This document shows, piece by piece, positions 4,133 through 23,774 of a stretch of 24,386 bases of DNA (its first letter is position 1; each line of letters begins with the position of its first letter). The stretch spans positions 1-24,386 of the IMG/VR virus record IMGVR_UViG_3300010412_000078; one strand, given 5' to 3'. The translations under genes and the position numbers were made by a program. A model generated the notes under the pieces. It saw only the letters and a list, made by a program, of their open reading frames with translations. It ran no database searches and had not been told where the DNA came from. The DNA comes from a virus.

Positions 4133-6415
4133 ATGAAATTCGCAATTCGAGCATTTTTGACAATCTTTTTTATTTCGGTTGTCGCCTTTGCTGCAAAGAT
4201 CACTTCAAACATTTTGATTGTTGGTGACCAAAACGCAGCGACCGACAAACAAATCCAAATGGGCGACGGAATTCTCAAGTGGGTTGGAACAACTGGACGT
4301 CTTGAGTTTTCAAACGATGCTGGTGGACTTTACAAGGCCGTCGGAAGCGGTGCTGGCGGCGGTGCTGGCGGAGTGAATCTTTTGGCTGAAAGTGGAAACG
4401 CAGACTTTGAAGCCGGAAATCCACCCGACGGCTGGACAGCGAGTGCCGGAACATATATCAGTGAAACAACCGCACCAGGATTTGACGGACAAAGTGCAAG
4501 TTGGGATTCGTCCGGCATTTCTCAAACTTTTGATTCAATTGCCGTTGACCCGCCAAAAGCATTAGAGTCAAATTCCTGCGCTGGTCAGATTTACTACAAA
4601 TGGGACGGTGGAACACCAGGCGACCTTCAATTTCAAGTGGTTGACGGAAGTGCAAACATTCTCGCGCAAACCGGAACTTCAACCGACGGAACACCTTTTC
4701 CAGCCGGTTCAACATGGCAAAAAATGACTCTTGTCTTTACTTGTCCAACTGGAACAACAACTGTTTTTCTTCGATTGAAGTCTTTGGTTGCTGACCCAGC
4801 GTTGATTCTTTTGGACAACGCCCATTTAGGAAGTGACCCGACAACAAGTGAAATTGCGCAGGCTGAACTTGTTGCGCACGCATATTATGCGGACACTACT
4901 TCGTGCAACTGGAATAGAACAAACGCCGCACTTGGTGAATTTGGAACTACTGCGGCATGTCCTTCAATCACTGTCGTTTCTTCAACATATCCAGTTGACA
5001 CAACTGACAATGACCTTCCTGACATTGATTTTGATATGCTTCCACCTGGAAGTTACAAAATCACAGCGACATTTTCAGGTGAAATTACATTGGTTGCATC
5101 TTCAGGTGGTTCTTATGGAATTTCTGACGGTTCGAGTTTTAGGGGCGTGATTTCATCTCGAAATGGTAGTGAAACAACACCAGGGATCAGACAATATACA
5201 GTTATCGCAAACTATGTTTATACGACATCAGGTGCAAGAAATTTCAGAATAGTTGGTGCTGCCGATTCAGGTCAAACTATTCGACTTTACAACGAAGGTT
5301 CTGCCTCTCAAACCAGACAACTCACCTGGACAATCGAACGATATCCACTCGGAACCGACAAAGCAATCACGCTCGATGCGGCTGATTGGTATGTGGATGC
5401 GAATATTGGTGGGGCGAACATAAGTCTTGGGTCAAGTAACCAGACATCTTACATTTCTCTTTCAAATGGCTCGCTTGATCTTGTATTAAATTCTGGATCT
5501 CAAAGTGCACAAATAACATGTAGCTCAACAAACCCACCTACAGGGCTCACCTGCGCGGCTGGGAGTGAAAATCCAGGGATAGCTGTAACAATTCCAAGAG
5601 TTGGAACATATGAAGTTTGCTTTGACATTGCTCACTATTCGTCAACGGATGCGGCTGGTTTCGTGAACGCAGCATTTCAGGTTGTTCGAACGTCTTGCAC
5701 AGATGACACTTCTATTGAGGCCGAAGGTGGAGTGAGGTTGCAATCTTCTGTCGAGGATTCGACAGGAGTTGCATTGAATGGTTCGAATCCTCAACATGTT
5801 TGTGGATATTTCAATGAAACGACAGTTGGTCAAAAATGTTATAGGTTGTTTTTTGAGCAGCAAGTTGCGGCCACTGTTTCAACAAACGTGATTCTAGCGG
5901 ATAGAAATGCGACTATTGGTCAACGTGACATCCACGTCACTGTCCGACCATGGACTACAGCTTCGAATACTTATCTTGCAGAAACAAATAACTATGCTGC
6001 ACACTACATAACATCTGGTGCTTCTGCAAATCTCTCTTTTGCTGATAATACATTTGAAACAGTAGACTACAATAGCAAAGTCTTTGATACATGCAATCCT
6101 GATTGCGTGACCGTTGGTGCTTCGTGGGTGTATACGTGTCCTAAAAATGGGCTTTACATGGTTGCTGGTGGTGTTTATTGGGGAAGCACTACAAACATGA
6201 TAAACACTGGAATCGCAATACGACTTGGCGGGTCATCAAAAGCTCGAAGTGACTTTGCAATATCATATTCGGTAGTAGCTAGCTCCTTAGTGACATGTAA
6301 TGCTGGTCAAACTATAGATATACAGGCATACCAAGATGATTCTACGTCTGCGGCACGATCTATTGCTACGGATCAGAGAAATTATATCTCCATTTGGAGA
6401 ATTGGGCCACAATAG
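4133..6415 (+). CDS. Exported fibre/adhesin with signal peptide, carbohydrate-binding-like and C1q-like domains
   Basis: A 760-residue probable fibre or adhesin. Residues 1-21 form a classical Sec signal peptide: MKFAIRAF, a hydrophobic core, then AFA before the next alanine. After a glycine-rich linker (about 72-82) comes a beta-sandwich segment opening with NLLAESGNADFEAG and DGWTASAGT, a pattern of CBM-like modules in phage and bacterial fibres. Several beta-rich repeats follow. The last 150 residues look like a C1q/TNF-type jelly roll: WVYTCPKNGLYMVAGGVYW, a central strand region, then TCNAGQTIDIQAYQ and a final YISIWRIG. About 14 cysteines are present, mostly in the second half, suggesting disulfides formed outside the cytoplasm. 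A cytoplasmically assembled tail fibre should not need a signal peptide, so it may act on the cell surface, or the peptide may be inherited from a host adhesin. Domain calls are by eye. Confidence 0.7.
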   Translation: MKFAIRAFLTIFFISVVAFAAKITSNILIVGDQNAATDKQIQMGDGILKWVGTTGRLEFSNDAGGLYKAVGSGAGGGAGGVNLLAESGNADFEAGNPPDGWTASAGTYISETTAPGFDGQSASWDSSGISQTFDSIAVDPPKALESNSCAGQIYYKWDGGTPGDLQFQVVDGSANILAQTGTSTDGTPFPAGSTWQKMTLVFTCPTGTTTVFLRLKSLVADPALILLDNAHLGSDPTTSEIAQAELVAHAYYADTTSCNWNRTNAALGEFGTTAACPSITVVSSTYPVDTTDNDLPDIDFDMLPPGSYKITATFSGEITLVASSGGSYGISDGSSFRGVISSRNGSETTPGIRQYTVIANYVYTTSGARNFRIVGAADSGQTIRLYNEGSASQTRQLTWTIERYPLGTDKAITLDAADWYVDANIGGANISLGSSNQTSYISLSNGSLDLVLNSGSQSAQITCSSTNPPTGLTCAAGSENPGIAVTIPRVGTYEVCFDIAHYSSTDAAGFVNAAFQVVRTSCTDDTSIEAEGGVRLQSSVEDSTGVALNGSNPQHVCGYFNETTVGQKCYRLFFEQQVAATVSTNVILADRNATIGQRDIHVTVRPWTTASNTYLAETNNYAAHYITSGASANLSFADNTFETVDYNSKVFDTCNPDCVTVGASWVYTCPKNGLYMVAGGVYWGSTTNMINTGIAIRLGGSSKARSDFAISYSVVASSLVTCNAGQTIDIQAYQDDSTSAARSIATDQRNYISIWRIGPQ

Positions 6416-14379: not shown

Positions 14380-15291
14380 TTAGTCCTTCGAATCAACTAG
14401 ATCAATCTTGAAATAGGTGGTTTCTTTCTTTCTGTATGGTTCAAGGTCAATGCCTTTCAATTCCTTGACTTTGGAATAGTCGACGTTTCCCTTCCTTGTG
14501 ACTTCGGTCATTCTTGTTCTTTGACATTTGACCCGATTCCAACCTTTTTGTTTGCAATGTTCAATGAATTCTTCCTTAACAAGTTCCAGGCGTTGTTTTG
14601 CAACGTTGAATTCTTGGGTTGCAAGTTCAAAGCGTTCAGCAATTCGAACAAGTTCGCCTTGCTTGACTTCGTGAAAGTCTCGATCTCCAATCGGCGGCGG
14701 AGTGTCGTTTGTGACGAGCGTCCAAAACTTTTCAGCCCTTTCCACATATTTGTTGATTGCTTCTTTGTCTGGATAGCATCGGATTTTTTCACAGTCGCCG
14801 TCATATTTGTCGCCGTCCTTTTCCACAAAATATGAAAAGTAGTCAATCCACTTCGCACCAGTCACGAAAAATTGGTGTTGGATTTGCCAAAAATATTTTT
14901 CAGGAATTTCTTTTTGTTTTGCGCGTTCGTGGTCTTCACGTCCAGGACACTTGATTTCAAGACCACAATGAAGTTCGTCGTTCCAGCCGTCCATTGAAGC
15001 CCTGAAAATTCCCGCTTCGAATGTCCTTGGTGGAAAGGCGAACTTGTGAAGTTCTTCATATTTTTTGCGGGCAATTGGTTCAAGAGCCTGACCACGTTTG
15101 GCCGCAAACCCGGCTTCGTCAGGAAGTTTTCTTCCGGTCTTGAGTTCCCAAAGTTTGAACGGAGTTGACCAGGGGCTCACTTCCATTATGATTGGGGCGT
15201 CACTTGCACCAAGACCTTTTGACCGCCAATCGTGCCACGCTTTTCCACCTTGAACGTCTTCCGGTTTTTGTGCCCATGACATGTCAATCAT
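14380..15291 (-). CDS. YqaJ-family (lambda Exo-like) phage recombination exonuclease
   Basis: A 303-residue member of the YqaJ viral recombinase family, related to lambda Red exonuclease, which resects double-stranded DNA 5' to 3' to feed a single-strand annealing protein. The motifs are clear: WHDWRSKGLGASDAP (residues 19-33) with SPWSTPFKLWELKTGR after it, E71 in GQALEPIARKKYE, D101 in ASMDGW, then E112-x-K114 in GLEIKCP, and Q-rich YFWQIQHQFFVTG. These supply the PD-(D/E)XK catalytic set. The C-terminal third is charged and coiled-coil-like. Start ATG 15291 overlaps the HTH gene's end by eight bases; ATG 15282 is an alternative. It shares the operon with a Sak4-like ATPase and a DUF669-like protein, its probable partners. 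Confidence 0.9.
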   Translation of the reverse strand: MIDMSWAQKPEDVQGGKAWHDWRSKGLGASDAPIIMEVSPWSTPFKLWELKTGRKLPDEAGFAAKRGQALEPIARKKYEELHKFAFPPRTFEAGIFRASMDGWNDELHCGLEIKCPGREDHERAKQKEIPEKYFWQIQHQFFVTGAKWIDYFSYFVEKDGDKYDGDCEKIRCYPDKEAINKYVERAEKFWTLVTNDTPPPIGDRDFHEVKQGELVRIAERFELATQEFNVAKQRLELVKEEFIEHCKQKGWNRVKCQRTRMTEVTRKGNVDYSKVKELKGIDLEPYRKKETTYFKIDLVDSKD

Positions 15292-15568
15292 ATGCTTTGA
15301 ATTCCTCTTCCCATTGGACTTTTTTGTCCATTAAATAAGACCGAACAAATTCTTTCCTCGGAAACTTTCTTGTTGGAAACAAACTCAAAAGTTTTTGAAC
15401 CAACCACACCGGCGGTGGACAAACACCGCGTTCAATGTTCGACACTTGTTGTGGATGACATTCCAACGCCGTTCCCAGGTCCCTTTGAGAAAGTTTCAAG
15501 GATTGTCTGAACTTCTTGAAGGTCATTGCTGAGTGATAATATTCCACGTCGTCGTTCCTTTTCTTCAT
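15284..15568 (-). CDS. XRE/Cro-CI type helix-turn-helix protein
   Basis: A 94-residue DNA-binding protein. The HTH_3 fold is evident: MTFKKFRQSLKLSQRDLG as helices 1 and 2, then TALECHPQQVSNIERG as the recognition helix and exit, followed by PPPVWLVQKLL. Thus it is probably a phage repressor or Cro-like regulator. The start is uncertain: ATG 15568 (MKKRNDD) and ATG 15526 (MTFKKF) both lack a strong ribosome site, and a longer frame reaching 15643 has a cysteine-rich leader unlike the family. The 5' part overlaps out of frame the small membrane-protein frame at 15432-15713. Regulator placement deep within the early operon, rather than beside the divergent promoter, is unusual. Confidence 0.75.
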   Translation of the reverse strand: MKKRNDDVEYYHSAMTFKKFRQSLKLSQRDLGTALECHPQQVSNIERGVCPPPVWLVQKLLSLFPTRKFPRKEFVRSYLMDKKVQWEEEFKAYD

Positions 15569-15713
15569 GAATACAACTCGGAATTGATAGCATTGAAATG
15601 CTGACGATGGCAAGACACAAACCCCAAATGACCAACAAAACAAAAACAGGTTTCAAAAAATCCCCACTCAAATGAAAAAACAACATCTTGTGTTTAGACT
15701 TGCAGTGGTTCAT
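15432..15713 (-). CDS. Possible small membrane protein, overlapping the HTH gene
   Basis: A 93-residue frame that begins with ATG immediately after the VRR-NUC stop (TGA then ATG), preceded by AGGTG in the end of that gene, a good coupled start. It encodes one membrane helix at about residues 19-43 (FLKPVFVLLVIWG and onward) followed by a cytoplasmic tail. The last 137 bases overlap the HTH gene in a different frame; the helix-coding part does not. The unique part is otherwise unexplained sequence, so a gene is plausible, but the tail reads like an out-of-frame shadow. I give it moderate-low confidence. Confidence 0.4.
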   Translation of the reverse strand: MNHCKSKHKMLFFHLSGDFLKPVFVLLVIWGLCLAIVSISMLSIPSCIHEEKERRRGILSLSNDLQEVQTILETFSKGPGNGVGMSSTTSVEH

Positions 15714-16576: not shown

Positions 16577-16785
16577 GGTTCAAACCCACTTTCTTGCATC
16601 TTCGAACATGACCCACACATGCGGTTTGCCTTCACGTCTTCAGATTCAAATTCTTTGTTGCACCGAAGACACCGCCGAACACCACGAACTATTTTTTTCA
16701 TTCCAAGTTTTTTTCTCAACCATTCAACTTGTCGGTTGAGTTCCCTTGAAGTCAGTTCTTCGTGGCATTGACGGCTTGAACTCAT
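16573..16785 (-). CDS. Small zinc-ribbon protein (C4)
   Basis: A 70-residue protein with a C-terminal four-cysteine zinc-binding knuckle: C39-x2-C42 and C57-x2-C60 separated by 14 residues, in a form common among small phage zinc-ribbon proteins. The N-terminal 35 residues are helical and basic (ELNRQVEWLRKKLGMKKI). ATG 16785 overlaps the upstream stop by four bases. Such proteins often bind nucleic acid or RNA polymerase; which one this does is not visible. The tight coupling to the HTH protein upstream suggests joint production. Confidence 0.65.
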   Translation of the reverse strand: MSSSRQCHEELTSRELNRQVEWLRKKLGMKKIVRGVRRCLRCNKEFESEDVKANRMCGSCSKMQESGFEP

Positions 16786-17144
16786 ATGATTCGCATATGT
16801 GAAAAAATAGTTTGCTTTTCAGTTTTTGTGAAGTCTTCAGAAATAGAAATTTTCGCAACCAACTTCAACATGTTTGAATCAACTTCCTTTGGCGGTCGCC
16901 TTTCGGTTCTTGCCTTTTTAGTTCGTTTGGTTTGGTTCTTCATTTTTCTTTTCTTCCTTGGCTTCAAGGTTCGAAGACCTGACCGACAAAGAACATTTGA
17001 AACGTCCGTTTGCGTCCACGGTCTTCCGGTTCCATTCAACTTGATTCCTTCGTTGTTCAGGATTGTTGCAATTTCACTTTGCTTCAATCCCTGGTTTCGA
17101 AGTTCAATGGCTCGATTGATTGCTTTCACTTCAACTTGTCCCAT
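16782..17144 (-). CDS. Small HTH DNA-binding protein with basic tail
   Basis: A 120-residue protein with an N-terminal helix-turn-helix like that preceding recombinase domains and in homeodomain-like phage regulators: INRAIELRNQGLKQSEIATILNNEG, then GRPWTQTDVSNVL as a second helix pair. Residues about 61-85 are extremely basic (KPRKKRKMKNQTKRTKKART), suggesting non-specific DNA or RNA contact. There is no catalytic recombinase domain. AAAGGTGA six bases before ATG 17144 gives a strong start. It follows the DUF669-like gene in the operon. It may be an operon regulator or an accessory to replication; sequence alone cannot separate these. Confidence 0.65.
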   Translation of the reverse strand: MGQVEVKAINRAIELRNQGLKQSEIATILNNEGIKLNGTGRPWTQTDVSNVLCRSGLRTLKPRKKRKMKNQTKRTKKARTERRPPKEVDSNMLKLVAKISISEDFTKTEKQTIFSHMRII

Positions 17145-17166: not shown

Positions 17167-17628
17167 TTAAAGAAACGACGGAAGATTGTCTTTTTCTTCC
17201 GTTGATTTCCACTTTGATTTTTCTTCAAAATAGCTGACTTCGTTCTTCTCGCCCCACGAGTCACGAACTTCTTTGACGTTGGCAACAACTCGATAGCCAA
17301 CAAGTTCTTCGGCTGAAGAAATGTGGTTCGGGTCAGGATGACCGACCGTTGTCAAAAAGCCTTTCAAATAGCCGAGTTGTTTTTCAAGTTTTTCAGCGTC
17401 TTGGTCTGCAATGACAAACGCCTTCCAAAGTTTTCTTCCTTTGAATCCTTCGGGTTCCAAAACTGAAAGTTCAAGATTGATGTATTCACCAGTCTTTGCC
17501 TTGTTTTCTTTGACCGTTGCGCCGGTGGTTGCGCACAAATATTTTCCCGCAGGCATCAACGCAAATCCTTCCTTTGCTTTGACGCCGGTCATGTCAACAA
17601 GAGTGTTTCTTTGGGTCGTGGTTTCCAT
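17167..17628 (-). CDS. DUF669-like single-stranded-DNA-binding accessory protein
   Basis: A 153-residue protein resembling the DUF669 family of phage proteins, often encoded beside Sak4/RecA-like ATPases and thought to act as a phage SSB. Features: GFALMPAGKYLCATTGATV, KENKAKTGEYINLELSVLEPEGFKGRKLW, then LGYLKGFLTTVG, EELVGYRVVANVK and a closing acidic stretch rich in K and E, ending in LPSFL. The beta-strand spacing suits an OB fold, and an acidic or hydrophobic C-terminal tip is reminiscent of SSB proteins. ATG 17628 has GGAG eight bases upstream. It is only 3 bases past the end of the ATPase gene. Family call is fairly good; binding activity is inferred. Confidence 0.75.
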   Translation of the reverse strand: METTTQRNTLVDMTGVKAKEGFALMPAGKYLCATTGATVKENKAKTGEYINLELSVLEPEGFKGRKLWKAFVIADQDAEKLEKQLGYLKGFLTTVGHPDPNHISSAEELVGYRVVANVKEVRDSWGEKNEVSYFEEKSKWKSTEEKDNLPSFL

Positions 17629-17631
17629 TTT

Positions 17632-18372
17632 CTATTCTCCTTTTGTGGTGGGTGGTTTTTGAATTGGTTTTGTTTGTCGAATCTTTGCAACAATTGCTTT
17701 GAGATTCGGACTTTCAATCATGTTCAATTTTCCTGACCTATCTTTTGCGACAATGTTTTCCCTTGGTTGAGTCAACAAATAGCGGTCACCATTGTCTTTG
17801 TTGATTCCCATGTAGAACACTTCGTCGAAAAATGCTGGAAGTTGCTGACCGATTTTTCCGGCCATGTCCACTTGAAGGAAGCGTCGATTGTTTTCGTCCT
17901 TTTCTGTCTTATCGAGTGCGGTGAAAACAATGTTATAATAGGGAATGTCACGAAAACTTTTGACAAGGGCTCTTGCCTTTTTGGAGTAATCGCCCCACAT
18001 ATTGATTGACTCTTTTTTCTCTGGATAGACTTCCGACAATTGGTCAACCAAATTCTGGGAAATCTCTGTCATCGAATCAATGAAAACCCAATCATATTTT
18101 TGACGCGTCTTTTCTTCCAACAAAAATTGGAACACCTTCCCAAGACGTTCCATTCGCCTTTCTTTTGGAATCATGTCACCATTGTCGTCAGTGGAAATGT
18201 CAATGACATCAATGTCTTTGCCTGACAAGGACAAGAGCCCACTTTCAGCACTTATCAAAAGAGTTGGTGCGTCAATTGTTGACGCAAGTGTTGTCTTGCC
18301 AACACCAGGACTTCCATAGACCAGAAACCGAAGTTTCTGCAATTCAACTTGTTTAGTGTTCGTCACTTTCAT
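17632..18372 (-). CDS. Sak4-like RecA-fold ATPase (AAA_24), recombination
   Basis: A 246-residue P-loop ATPase of the phage Sak4/AAA_24 group, short relatives of RecA that help single-strand annealing. Walker A is GSPGVGKT (residues 20-27), a catalytic-type glutamate follows in SAESG (E43), Walker B is YDWVFIDS with D99, and ALDKTE plus the GKIGQQLPAFFDEVFYM block are characteristic. AAGGAA precedes ATG 18372 with about eight bases of spacing. It is first in the leftward operon, directly facing the divergent primase gene. With the DUF669-like and YqaJ products it would form a complete exonuclease-annealing system. A host RecA role cannot be excluded, but length and context favour Sak4. Confidence 0.85.
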   Translation of the reverse strand: MKVTNTKQVELQKLRFLVYGSPGVGKTTLASTIDAPTLLISAESGLLSLSGKDIDVIDISTDDNGDMIPKERRMERLGKVFQFLLEEKTRQKYDWVFIDSMTEISQNLVDQLSEVYPEKKESINMWGDYSKKARALVKSFRDIPYYNIVFTALDKTEKDENNRRFLQVDMAGKIGQQLPAFFDEVFYMGINKDNGDRYLLTQPRENIVAKDRSGKLNMIESPNLKAIVAKIRQTKPIQKPPTTKGE

Positions 18373-18515: not shown

Positions 18516-20708
18516 ATGTATACAGAGCTTTTCGAACATGGTTTGGTTCCGATTCCTATTCAGCCAAAATCAAAAGCCCCGGTGTCAGATGCGCGTGGTT
18601 TCAACGTTTGGGCGCGTGACGGAATTCCACCTGAAATGGTCGAACTGTTTGAACAAAAGTATCCTACTGACAAATATGGCATTGCTATTGTCTTGGGTCC
18701 AGCATCCAACCTTTGCGTTGTGGACATTGACTCTGACGACGAAGAACTTTTGCGGATTTGTCCACCAAGTCCTGTCAGGCGTCGAGGCAAAAAAGGTGAA
18801 GCAAGGTTTTTCAAATACAATCCAAATGTGAAAAACATTTCCTTCAAGAACGGAACAAAAGGAGTGGATGTCCTTTGCGACAAAAAATATATCATCATTC
18901 CACCTTCAATCCACCCGGACACTGGGCTTCAATATCGGTGGACTTCCTACGACGACTTGTGCGGTGGACTTGAACTTCTTGAACCACTTCACGAACAATC
19001 AATTGAACCCGTGGCCGGTTTCTTCCACTCGCCCCTCAATAGTTCAGAAAGTTCGTCCGTTGAACTCACCGGCACCTTTCAAAGTCCCGACGGCGTCCGT
19101 GCCCCACATGGTTCCTATCTTCGAATCAAAGCCCTTGCACACGGGTTCATAAATGAGTGTATGCCGATTGAACAAGCGGTGCAAAAGTTAATTGACTACG
19201 ACAAAGAACACCACTTGGGCGTTCGGTTCTTTGAAGACAAACGAACACACGCTGATTTCGGTGCGGATCCGTATTCAAACGCGCTTCGAATCTATTCGAA
19301 TTTCATGAAATCAGTGAATGAAGAACGACTCAGGCGTGGTGAAAGTCCGCAAATTCCAAGTCAACGAATTGAAATAGTGGATGTGAGTGATTTGACAAAA
19401 GCCGAAAATGCCTATTTGTTCAAGTCATATCCTGAACCACGCGGGTTCATGAAAACATTTGTCGACCATTGCGACACACTTTCAAAGGGAAGACAAGACG
19501 CGCTTGGACTTGGTGGGGCGCTCGCACTCATGGCGGGACTTTGTTCAAACAGAGTTCAAACAAAGGTGCGTGGTCTTTCGGTGTGGCCGAACCTTTTTGT
19601 GTTGAACATAGGCTATTCGAGTTTTGGAAAAAGTGCGCCACAAAGATTGATTGATGACCTTTTGCTTGAAACAGACCTTGTCGGTTCAGCCAACTATCGA
19701 AGTGGTTCAGCAATCGTGCAAAACCTTCCCAAACAACAAGAACGGGTGGATGTCATCGACGAAGCGTCGGCCCTTTTGAAAGCCCTTGGTGGAAGGGAAT
19801 ATTTTCAAAACGAAATGGTGGAAGTTCTTTCAGACCTTTTTTCAAAATCAAGTGGGTTCTTCACCGGCTTTTCCAGCATCACACACGGTCAACACCACGG
19901 CGCTTGTTGGAACCCTTGCGTGAATGTCCTTGCCTCGACCACACCAGTCGGATTCAAGACGTCAGTGACCAAAGACATGGCCGGGAAAGGTTTGCTTCCA
20001 CGGTTTTTGACTTTCTTCCAAAAAGAAATCGGAACGTTCAAGGCCGAAGTGGACGAAGAAAGATTGGCTTCATTGAGGTTGGATCTCGAGAAGTTTGTTT
20101 CCAAAATTCTTGGAACAAAGAAACCGCTTCACAACGAATTTAATCCAACCCCGAACCTGGTCGCCAAACATAAGGACAAAGAAGGAAAAGACATTTCGCA
20201 AGGTGTCAGGTATAGTCCCCTTATAGTCCCTTTTGACGACGGAGCGAGAAAACTTTGGACAGACTTTGACAGAATGAACTTCAACAAAGCCAAACAGGAC
20301 CCGGACGGGTTTGAATCGGCGTTCTATGGAAGGCATGCTGAACTTGTCGCAAAGGTCAGTTTGCTTGATGCTGTTTCGCGCAAGGATGACATTATCCGAG
20401 CTGAATGCGTTCAATGGTCCATTGACCTTGTCACGACCGCTTGGGACAACTGTCGGCCCTTGTATGCGCTGACAAGTGCCGAGAATAGTTTGGAAGCGAG
20501 TCACATGAAAGTTTTGGAATTGATTCGTCAACACACCGAGCCAATGACACGCAGCAAGTTAGCAACAAGAACTCAATGGTTGAATAGAAAACTCCGAAAT
20601 GATATTGTTGAAAGTCTGATCGAAGGTGAATACATCGACGAAGTCGAGGTGAAAACCGATGGGTCGAAGAAACCGACTCGCTATTTGCGCGCACGCGCAA
20701 CCAAATGA
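18516..20708 (+). CDS. Primase-polymerase / P-loop helicase fusion (replication protein)
   Basis: A 730-residue replication protein. The N-terminal 180 residues resemble the bifunctional primase-polymerase domain: LVPIPIQPKSKAP, then VVDIDSDD with metal ligands D70 and D72, and later KGVDVLCDKKYIIIPPSIHPDTG. The middle and C-terminal part is a P-loop NTPase of the DUF3987/SF3-like kind: GYSSFGKS (residues 366-373) as Walker A and RVDVIDEAS with D415/E416 as Walker B. The last 70 residues read like a winged helix (MKVLELIRQHTEPMTRSKL through YLRARATK). It should make primers and unwind DNA at the origin. ATG 18516 is chosen over a start at 18459, which adds a cysteine-rich leader. The gene abuts the iteron cluster downstream. 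Confidence 0.85.
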   Translation: MYTELFEHGLVPIPIQPKSKAPVSDARGFNVWARDGIPPEMVELFEQKYPTDKYGIAIVLGPASNLCVVDIDSDDEELLRICPPSPVRRRGKKGEARFFKYNPNVKNISFKNGTKGVDVLCDKKYIIIPPSIHPDTGLQYRWTSYDDLCGGLELLEPLHEQSIEPVAGFFHSPLNSSESSSVELTGTFQSPDGVRAPHGSYLRIKALAHGFINECMPIEQAVQKLIDYDKEHHLGVRFFEDKRTHADFGADPYSNALRIYSNFMKSVNEERLRRGESPQIPSQRIEIVDVSDLTKAENAYLFKSYPEPRGFMKTFVDHCDTLSKGRQDALGLGGALALMAGLCSNRVQTKVRGLSVWPNLFVLNIGYSSFGKSAPQRLIDDLLLETDLVGSANYRSGSAIVQNLPKQQERVDVIDEASALLKALGGREYFQNEMVEVLSDLFSKSSGFFTGFSSITHGQHHGACWNPCVNVLASTTPVGFKTSVTKDMAGKGLLPRFLTFFQKEIGTFKAEVDEERLASLRLDLEKFVSKILGTKKPLHNEFNPTPNLVAKHKDKEGKDISQGVRYSPLIVPFDDGARKLWTDFDRMNFNKAKQDPDGFESAFYGRHAELVAKVSLLDAVSRKDDIIRAECVQWSIDLVTTAWDNCRPLYALTSAENSLEASHMKVLELIRQHTEPMTRSKLATRTQWLNRKLRNDIVESLIEGEYIDEVEVKTDGSKKPTRYLRARATK

Positions 20709-20745
20709 ATCAATGAAAAATCTGGACGCAGCACTTCAAACCAAC

Positions 20746-20990
20746 GAAGAAATTCAAGAAATTCAAGAAATTCAATTTTCTGAATTTCTTCCAACTATCG
20801 GAAACAATTCATGATCTGAAGAAATTCAAGAAATTCAAGAAATTCAACGGCCCACCTTGGACGTGTGTGGAATAGGGGACACTTGAATTTATTGAATTTA
20901 TTGAATTTGTTCATTCTGAAAGAAGAATCTAAAGTGAAAACAAGGTGTTGTGAAAAATTAAGAAATTCAAATTTCCCTTGAACTTCTTAA
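20746..20990. other. Candidate replication origin: iteron-like 9-bp repeats
   Basis: The stretch after the primase gene has no convincing gene for about 370 bases. It holds the 9-bp unit GAAATTCAA three times in tandem at 20749-20775, three more at 20821-20847, and one at 20962-20970. The same unit, inverted, occurs as TTGAATTT plus a variable base three times at 20883-20909, as TTGAACTTC at 20978-20986, and partially at 20781-20789. GAAGAAATTCA (20746-20756) and TGAATTTCTTC (20781-20791) form a perfect 11-bp inverted repeat, and 20958-20970 pairs with 20978-20990 with one mismatch. Such AT-rich iteron sets next to the initiator gene are the hallmark of a replication origin; function is inferred. 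Confidence 0.65.
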
Positions 20991-21077
20991 GAAACCCAGA
21001 ATCACCGCGTCAAAACGTCCTTCCTTCCAACTTTCTCTGGAAAAAGAAATTTCGTGTGATAAACGCTTTTGCAAAAC

Positions 21078-21494
21078 ATGGTCACAAAAGAAAGGTGGTT
21101 CCAAGTGCATTGGAAAATGGGAACTGAAGAATTGTCGCAAGTCCTTGATGATTTGTCCTATCGAATTCGTGAAGCGTTGAGAATCGTCAATAGTCTTGAA
21201 GAAATTGTCACATATCAGCAAAACCAACAAAAGGAAGGTTGGGTTGCAGTCGACATGTCAAAAAGAAGAAAACCACTTCAAACAGACTTCGACATTGAAG
21301 ACGGAATCAACGTTCAGGAAGACGAAATGTTGGAATTTTGTATGAACAACTTTTGCAATGAAAAACAACGAACATTCGTCAATGGGCTTTCTGATTTCAA
21401 AAAGAAATACGGTCACCTGACAGAAAAACAAAAAAGTTCGCTCGCTGCAACATTTGCCCAATGCGGTGGTTTACTAGACGACAACATTTTCTAA
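21078..21494 (+). CDS. Hypothetical early protein
   Basis: A protein of up to 138 residues with no recognised family. The first half is helical (EELSQVLDDLSYRIREALRI and on to EEIVTYQQNQQ), the second contains MSKRRKPLQTDFDIEDGINV and a helical FKKKYGHLTEKQKSSLAATF region. The start is not settled: ATG 21078 and ATG 21117 are in frame, and neither has a strong ribosome site. It is the first gene after the iteron cluster and reads away from it, so it may be a replication accessory or an early takeover protein. It is followed by a long inverted repeat before the next gene. Confidence 0.6.
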   Translation: MVTKERWFQVHWKMGTEELSQVLDDLSYRIREALRIVNSLEEIVTYQQNQQKEGWVAVDMSKRRKPLQTDFDIEDGINVQEDEMLEFCMNNFCNEKQRTFVNGLSDFKKKYGHLTEKQKSSLAATFAQCGGLLDDNIF

Positions 21495-23507: not shown

Positions 23508-23774
23508 ATGGGCTTTTTGGTCATATCAAGGCGAATTGGTGAACGAATCCTTGTCGGTGACGACATCGAAATCCTGGTCTCTGACATCTCAAGTGGAAAA
23601 GTCGACATTGCAATCAAAGCCGACAAAACAAAAGCAATCAAACGCCTTCCAACACTCATAGAGGCAAACAATGTCACTGAACATCACACTAGAAGAAGAA
23701 TTCAAAAGGATGGAACACATATTCGACGGAGTGAAGAAAAAAGCGTTTCCAACGTCGACAAGACAAGCCCTTAA
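23508..23774 (+). CDS. csrA: CsrA/RsmA family post-transcriptional regulator homologue
   Basis: An 88-residue protein whose first 54 residues align with CsrA, the dimeric RNA-binding regulator that blocks or stabilises mRNAs at GGA sites. Matches: MGFLVISRRIGERILVGDDIEI for the start (arginines R8 and R9 correspond to CsrA R6 and R7), KVDIAIKADKTKAIKR for the middle, with R46 at the position of R44, which contacts RNA. Residues 55-88 are a basic, H/R/K-rich extension beyond normal CsrA (about 60 residues) that overlaps the next gene completely. AAGG precedes ATG 23508. It is the first gene of the operon with the gpZ-like gene. It may alter host or phage mRNA translation; no target can be shown from here. 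Confidence 0.85.
   Translation: MGFLVISRRIGERILVGDDIEILVSDISSGKVDIAIKADKTKAIKRLPTLIEANNVTEHHTRRRIQKDGTHIRRSEEKSVSNVDKTSP

Follow-up and report, generated by a model that had tools for sequence, protein, structure and literature searches.

What purpose is served by the cluster of short repeats that directly follows the primase-helicase gene of this virus was the question raised by the locus. The window comprised all 24,386 bases of an IMG/VR virus contig whose record notes no end repeats. The initial annotation had described about a dozen iteron-like repeats in both orientations beside the gene and proposed an iteron origin. We consider it highly likely that the non-coding region 20709–21068 is the replication origin of the phage and that its iterons are bound by the adjoining primase-helicase, probably through a winged helix. 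The features are collected in Table 1.

Table 1. Features of the putative origin and of the neighbouring replication genes (positions in the window)
Feature	Position	Strand	Remarks
DUF669, SSB-like	17167..17628	-	
Sak4-like recombinase	17632..18372	-	PHROG 2.4e-47; replication-module partner in relatives
Putative initiator	18516..20708	+	Prim-Pol + DUF3987 + winged helix
Putative replication origin, non-coding	20709..21068	.	No covering ORF; repeat score 95
Iteron run 1	20746..20775	+	Three forward AAATTCAA cores (20750, 20759, 20768), 9-bp period
One-mismatch reverse cores	20771..20790	-	Two cores (20771, 20780); pairs with run 1 as hairpin
Iteron run 2	20818..20847	+	Three forward cores (20822, 20831, 20840); 30-mer same as run 1
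Spacer	20848..20882	.	35 bp, G+C-richer; separates oppositely oriented runs 2 and 3
Iteron run 3	20883..20909	-	Three reverse cores (20883, 20892, 20901)
Candidate unwinding element	20883..20933	.	Weakest 50-bp duplex of the 24,386-bp contig in a nearest-neighbour scan
Single forward iteron	20958..20970	+	Core 20963; one arm of 13-bp inverted pair
Single reverse one-mismatch iteron	20978..20990	-	Core 20978; second arm of 13-bp inverted pair

Between 20746 and 20990 the 8-bp core AAATTCAA was found exactly 10 times (7 forward, 3 reverse), together with 3 further reverse copies with one mismatch, the first core lying 41 bp past the stop codon of the primase-helicase gene; the background outside the array was 1.7 copies with at most one mismatch per 360 bp. 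The 8-mer repeat score of 20709–21068 was 95. The mean of 1000 dinucleotide shuffles was 5.5 and their maximum 19, and the highest score among 256 other contig windows within 8 kb of the gene was 18. GAAATTCAA was present in 9 copies contig-wide, 7 of them within the array, compared with an expectation of 1.6 for the shuffled contig, and no shuffle reached 9. Iteron-like repeats in both orientations were therefore confirmed, at a number far beyond that of the shuffles.

The identical 30-mer GAAGAAATTCAAGAAATTCAAGAAATTCAA occupied both 20746–20775 and 20818–20847, and TTGAATTTATTGAATTTATTGAATTTG at 20883–20909 was oriented opposite to both. The two forward runs of three exact units were found as first described, but the inverted run was not made of exact GAAATTCAA units, because the base beside the shared exact 8-bp core differs from that in the forward runs. 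Inverted pairs said to be of 11 and 13 bp were present with small corrections: the first is perfect over 10 bp (20765–20774/20781–20790) and part of a longer 21-bp pair (86%), and the second spans 13 bp (20958–20970/20978–20990) with one mismatch. Exact GAAATTCAAGAAATTCAA was found in 24 IMG/VR contigs with a single match each and no arrays, which we took as chance or coding matches.

The region had been called one with no clear gene, and this held: no ORF of at least 60 aa covered 20746–20966, and only a doubtful minus-strand ORF overlapped from 20967 on. It is extremely improbable that the runs encode EIQ tripeptides of a small protein, as might be suggested by the 9-bp period (three codons) and by an ATG at 20713 that opens 33 codons across run 1. 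The frame ends at 20812–20814, ahead of run 2, run 3 is inverted, and in relatives the repeat words vary and are located in non-coding sequence. Coding of the runs was rejected because the frame stops between them.

The candidate unwinding element also coincided with the AT-richest 40 bp of the region downstream of the gene (80% AT). It overlapped run 3 and was bounded by run 2 and the 20958–20990 pair, and it did not lie cleanly between the iteron sets. Runs 2 and 3 were able to pair over 31 nt at 90% around a 35-nt loop, and the DNA folding of the array region gave a z value of −5.4. Such pairing could indicate an origin recognised by structure: the protein would recognise a large stem-loop beyond the 3′ end of its gene, and the repeats would matter only as cruciform-forming opposed runs. 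pRN1, which has a related Prim-Pol, depends on a 100-bp stem-loop located downstream of orf904 (PMC4234260). We regard this reading as improbable, as folding of this kind is expected of any opposed repeat array, one stem-loop needs no head-to-tail tandem units at a regular 9-bp period, and the relatives L005 and L122 also have single iterons at variable distance. With regard to other signals, the exact DnaA box TTATNCACA was absent from the window, and 20600–21100 held no one-mismatch match to TTATCCACA. GC skew, which the initial annotation had offered as a check, followed gene orientation and gave no origin signal beyond that. An Rfam search gave no match.

The product of 18516–20708 matched DNA primase in PHROG (1.2e-46). 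It showed an AEP Prim-Pol domain at residues 5–144 (PF09250, E = 1e-13) and a DUF3987 AAA+ (MCM-like) helicase-like domain at about residues 300–645 (PF13148, E = 1.5e-12). The AlphaFold2 model, built with 23 relatives (mean pLDDT 72), predicted a C-terminal winged helix at about residues 656–730 in the order H-E-H-H-E-E, with a block pLDDT of about 70–91. The N-terminus of the family profile matched pRN1 ORF904 structures, and its C-terminus matched the winged-helix proteins RPA32, RNA polymerase III RPC39, and MarR with weak E-values. Foldseek matched MCM helicases at low TM-scores, consistent with the AAA+ core. As model and profile both point to a C-terminal winged helix, the fusion protein is the natural candidate for the initiator, in line with the initial proposal.

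Divergent and upstream of the primase-helicase gene lay the Sak4 and DUF669/SSB-like genes and, further off, YqaJ/RecE-like exonuclease genes. The Sak4-like gene had the same neighbours in Sfi21, Pseudomonas 73, and H40/1. The contig elsewhere carried baseplate, neck, endolysin, and tail genes, and because of its baseplate, neck, and endolysin genes the virus is a tailed phage and not a satellite. Since the contig is a linear fragment, a second origin may lie outside the window. Two other genes were observed in the neighbourhood. A CsrA-family RNA-binding regulator (23508–23774, plus strand; PF02599, E = 1.8e-11) adjoined the neck protein gene. A 120-aa protein (16782–17144, minus strand) matched PF07508 (E = 8e-6), the Recombinase domain of large serine recombinases, and had no resolvase domain; it may be a remnant or may bind DNA.

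Relatives of the primase-helicase gene were drawn from viral and genome contigs and were distant (about 16–25% identity). IMG/VR gave no close relative of the primase, and phage records gave no useful similar DNA; conservation of the layout was therefore established among distant relatives only. Each 400-bp window was scored for repeated 8-mers on both strands and compared with the other windows of the same contig (about 140–300). The 400 bp directly 3′ of the stop codon ranked above all control windows in 12 of 22 distinct loci, where about 0.1 would be expected by chance; this first set was not blind, because the score was devised after several loci had been inspected. The remaining 10 ranked below first, and several (L079, L102, L076, and BPP-1) had no array. 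For comparison, the same position ranked first in 6 of 26 Prim-Pol genes that are combined with helicases of other types. A later set was retrieved with other queries and consisted mostly of such Prim-Pol genes; of its roughly 8 groups, 3 reached first rank (L132, L133, and L139/L140), and L131 and part of the L145–L150 group came near it. In most L145–L150 contigs few control windows scored higher, but none of these contigs ranked first. The view that iteron origins are unusual for phages with Prim-Pol/DUF3987 proteins was wrong, as such an array immediately followed the 3′ end of the gene in over half of the loci surveyed. The match to an iteron origin itself stood, since the anatomy recurred beside diverged relatives and in the origin annotated for Sfi21, and we strongly infer an origin role for the array from these sequence comparisons.

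The arrays of relatives contained both orientations in nearly all cases, often with an 8–9 bp period, and usually around a TATATA-like core. In most loci the AT-richest 40 bp lay about 110–230 bp past the stop codon, between iteron groups, and in most relatives the opposed sets flanked the AT-rich region cleanly. The repeat word differed in nearly every relative (e.g., GTGTCACA, CGCCGACAA, GGTTTTGTCA): it was AAGTGTCACA in L005, CACTGTCACA in L006, AGTGTCATA in L007, AGGTTTTGTCA in L045, AGGTTTCGTCAC in L073, CCGCAAAAACC in L055, and CGCCGACAA in both L050 and L072. Iteron similarity correlated with primase identity (Mantel p about 0.005). The C-terminal domain correlated no better than the remainder of the protein did, and the partial correlation was about zero; the correlation belongs to the whole protein, and the winged helix is therefore not singled out.

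Some further repeats were observed among the relatives. A GTCA-/GACA-like core was visible in many iteron words (L005, L006, L007, L043, L045, L071, L073, L050, L072, L116, and L122), and the AAATTCAA of the window lacked it; this core is maybe an ancestral recognition motif. In L145–L150 the 120 bp that follow the Prim-Pol gene held GGGGACA repeats in both orientations, near-identical in several contigs. In L114 (Synechococcus phage Yong-M3-232) the top repeat window, at about 5550–5950, began about 314 bp past the primase stop codon, near the gap behind the small following gene, and is a possible displaced origin.

Streptococcus phage Sfi21 (NC_000872) served as positive control. Its GenBank feature 34487–34784 reads ‘origin of replication, 302 bp non-coding region, phage inhibitory sequence’, and this annotated origin ranked first of 231 windows in the same scan. 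As in the window, it lies directly 3′ of the primase gene, its repeats (GTAAC-type) surround an AT core and occur in both orientations, and the Sak4, SSB, and prim-pol genes form one module; unlike in the window, Prim-Pol and helicase are separate genes, and the repeat word and the host are different. First rank was obtained for 5 of 15 named records, namely Moraxella phage Mcat10, Sfi21, Rhizobium phage 16-3, Spartinivicinus plasmid pC, and Sphingomonas phage Kharn. Vibrio H188, Pseudoalteromonas H40/1 and C7, Pseudomonas 73, BPP-1, and others did not rank first; the array layout, though common, is therefore not universal.

The array also lies upstream of a plus-strand gene, and regulators bind direct and inverted repeats, so an operator array might be considered, on which a phage repressor or activator, for example the HTH regulator encoded at 15284–15643, would control the genes from 21069 onward. 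This seems unlikely. In relatives the array stayed behind the primase gene whatever followed (a VRR-NUC nuclease, small genes before terminase, and others), no sigma-70 promoter was found on the plus strand of the region, and an origin is favoured by an AT core with opposed sets around it, as in most relatives, and by the resemblance to the origin annotated in Sfi21. Autoregulation may occur alongside initiation. Partition sites, packaging sites, and recombination arm sites are likewise made of short direct and inverted repeats; any of these is a very unlikely substitute for an origin here, as the window showed no adjoining parA/parB, terminase, or integrase gene and the array lies behind the primase gene in relatives.

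For the preferred reading, a replication origin, iteron binding, melting, helicase loading, and bidirectionality are proposed by homology. Primase-helicase molecules would bind the AAATTCAA iterons, most likely via the C-terminal winged helix, and would assemble in opposed orientation on the two iteron sets. The weak duplex at about 20883–20933 could then be melted, the protein would load as helicase rings, and the Prim-Pol domain would prime DNA synthesis.

With somewhat better than even confidence, we extend this to phage Prim-Pol replication proteins generally, with DUF3987 or other helicases: the origin would lie directly 3′ of the protein's own gene and consist of fast-changing, often 8–9 bp-spaced iterons in both orientations with an AT core. 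If this is true, every phage would have a private initiator–iteron pair, and the PICI-type layout would be an ancestral design common to phages, plasmids, and satellites. A candidate location and mechanism of replication start would be available for a large phage group whose origins are mostly unannotated, with a simple rule for finding them, namely to look 3′ of the Prim-Pol gene. The differing iteron words of homologous proteins would form a natural series on how the specificity of winged-helix initiators changes. A plasmid-borne origin may titrate the phage initiator; the Sfi21 origin carries the annotation of a phage inhibitory sequence.

The kind of origin is already known from SaPI/PICI and Sfi21; in one open-access library we found no paper on DUF3987 proteins with iterons. 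PICI origins lie immediately 3′ of rep and have an AT-rich region flanked by two iteron sets, a layout once said to occur in no other known bacterial replicon (PMC6092414). Both the survey and the annotated Sfi21 origin speak against a layout restricted to PICIs, and suggest that the design is not private to them. The C-terminal domain of SaPI Rep recognises iterons directly downstream of its own gene, and that of SCCmec Cch2 binds direct repeats located downstream of the cch2 gene (PMC7581432). The window resembles SaPI/PICI in the array immediately 3′ of the candidate initiator gene, in short iterons forming two oppositely oriented sets, in a candidate AT-rich melting site, and in a predicted C-terminal DNA-binding domain; primase and helicase are sometimes fused there, as here. 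It differs in its tailed-phage gene set, in a weak duplex that overlaps run 3, in the additional inverted pair outside, and in its DUF3987 helicase domain; the Rep of SaPIbov1 has DUF927 helicases as its relatives, and that of SaPI5 is of the D5/Primase_Cterm type.

The phage protein shares with pRN1 ORF904 the combination of Prim-Pol, helicase, and C-terminal winged helix, the profile match at the N-terminus, and a position of the origin, putative here, 3′ of the gene (PMC4234260); in pRN1 that origin consists of a long stem-loop and has no iterons, whereas the array here is foldable but built of iterons. Phage P4 alpha protein with ori1 likewise joins primase, helicase, and iteron-binding winged helix in one polypeptide, but with a Toprim-type primase, an SF3 helicase, and another origin layout (see also PMC4234260).
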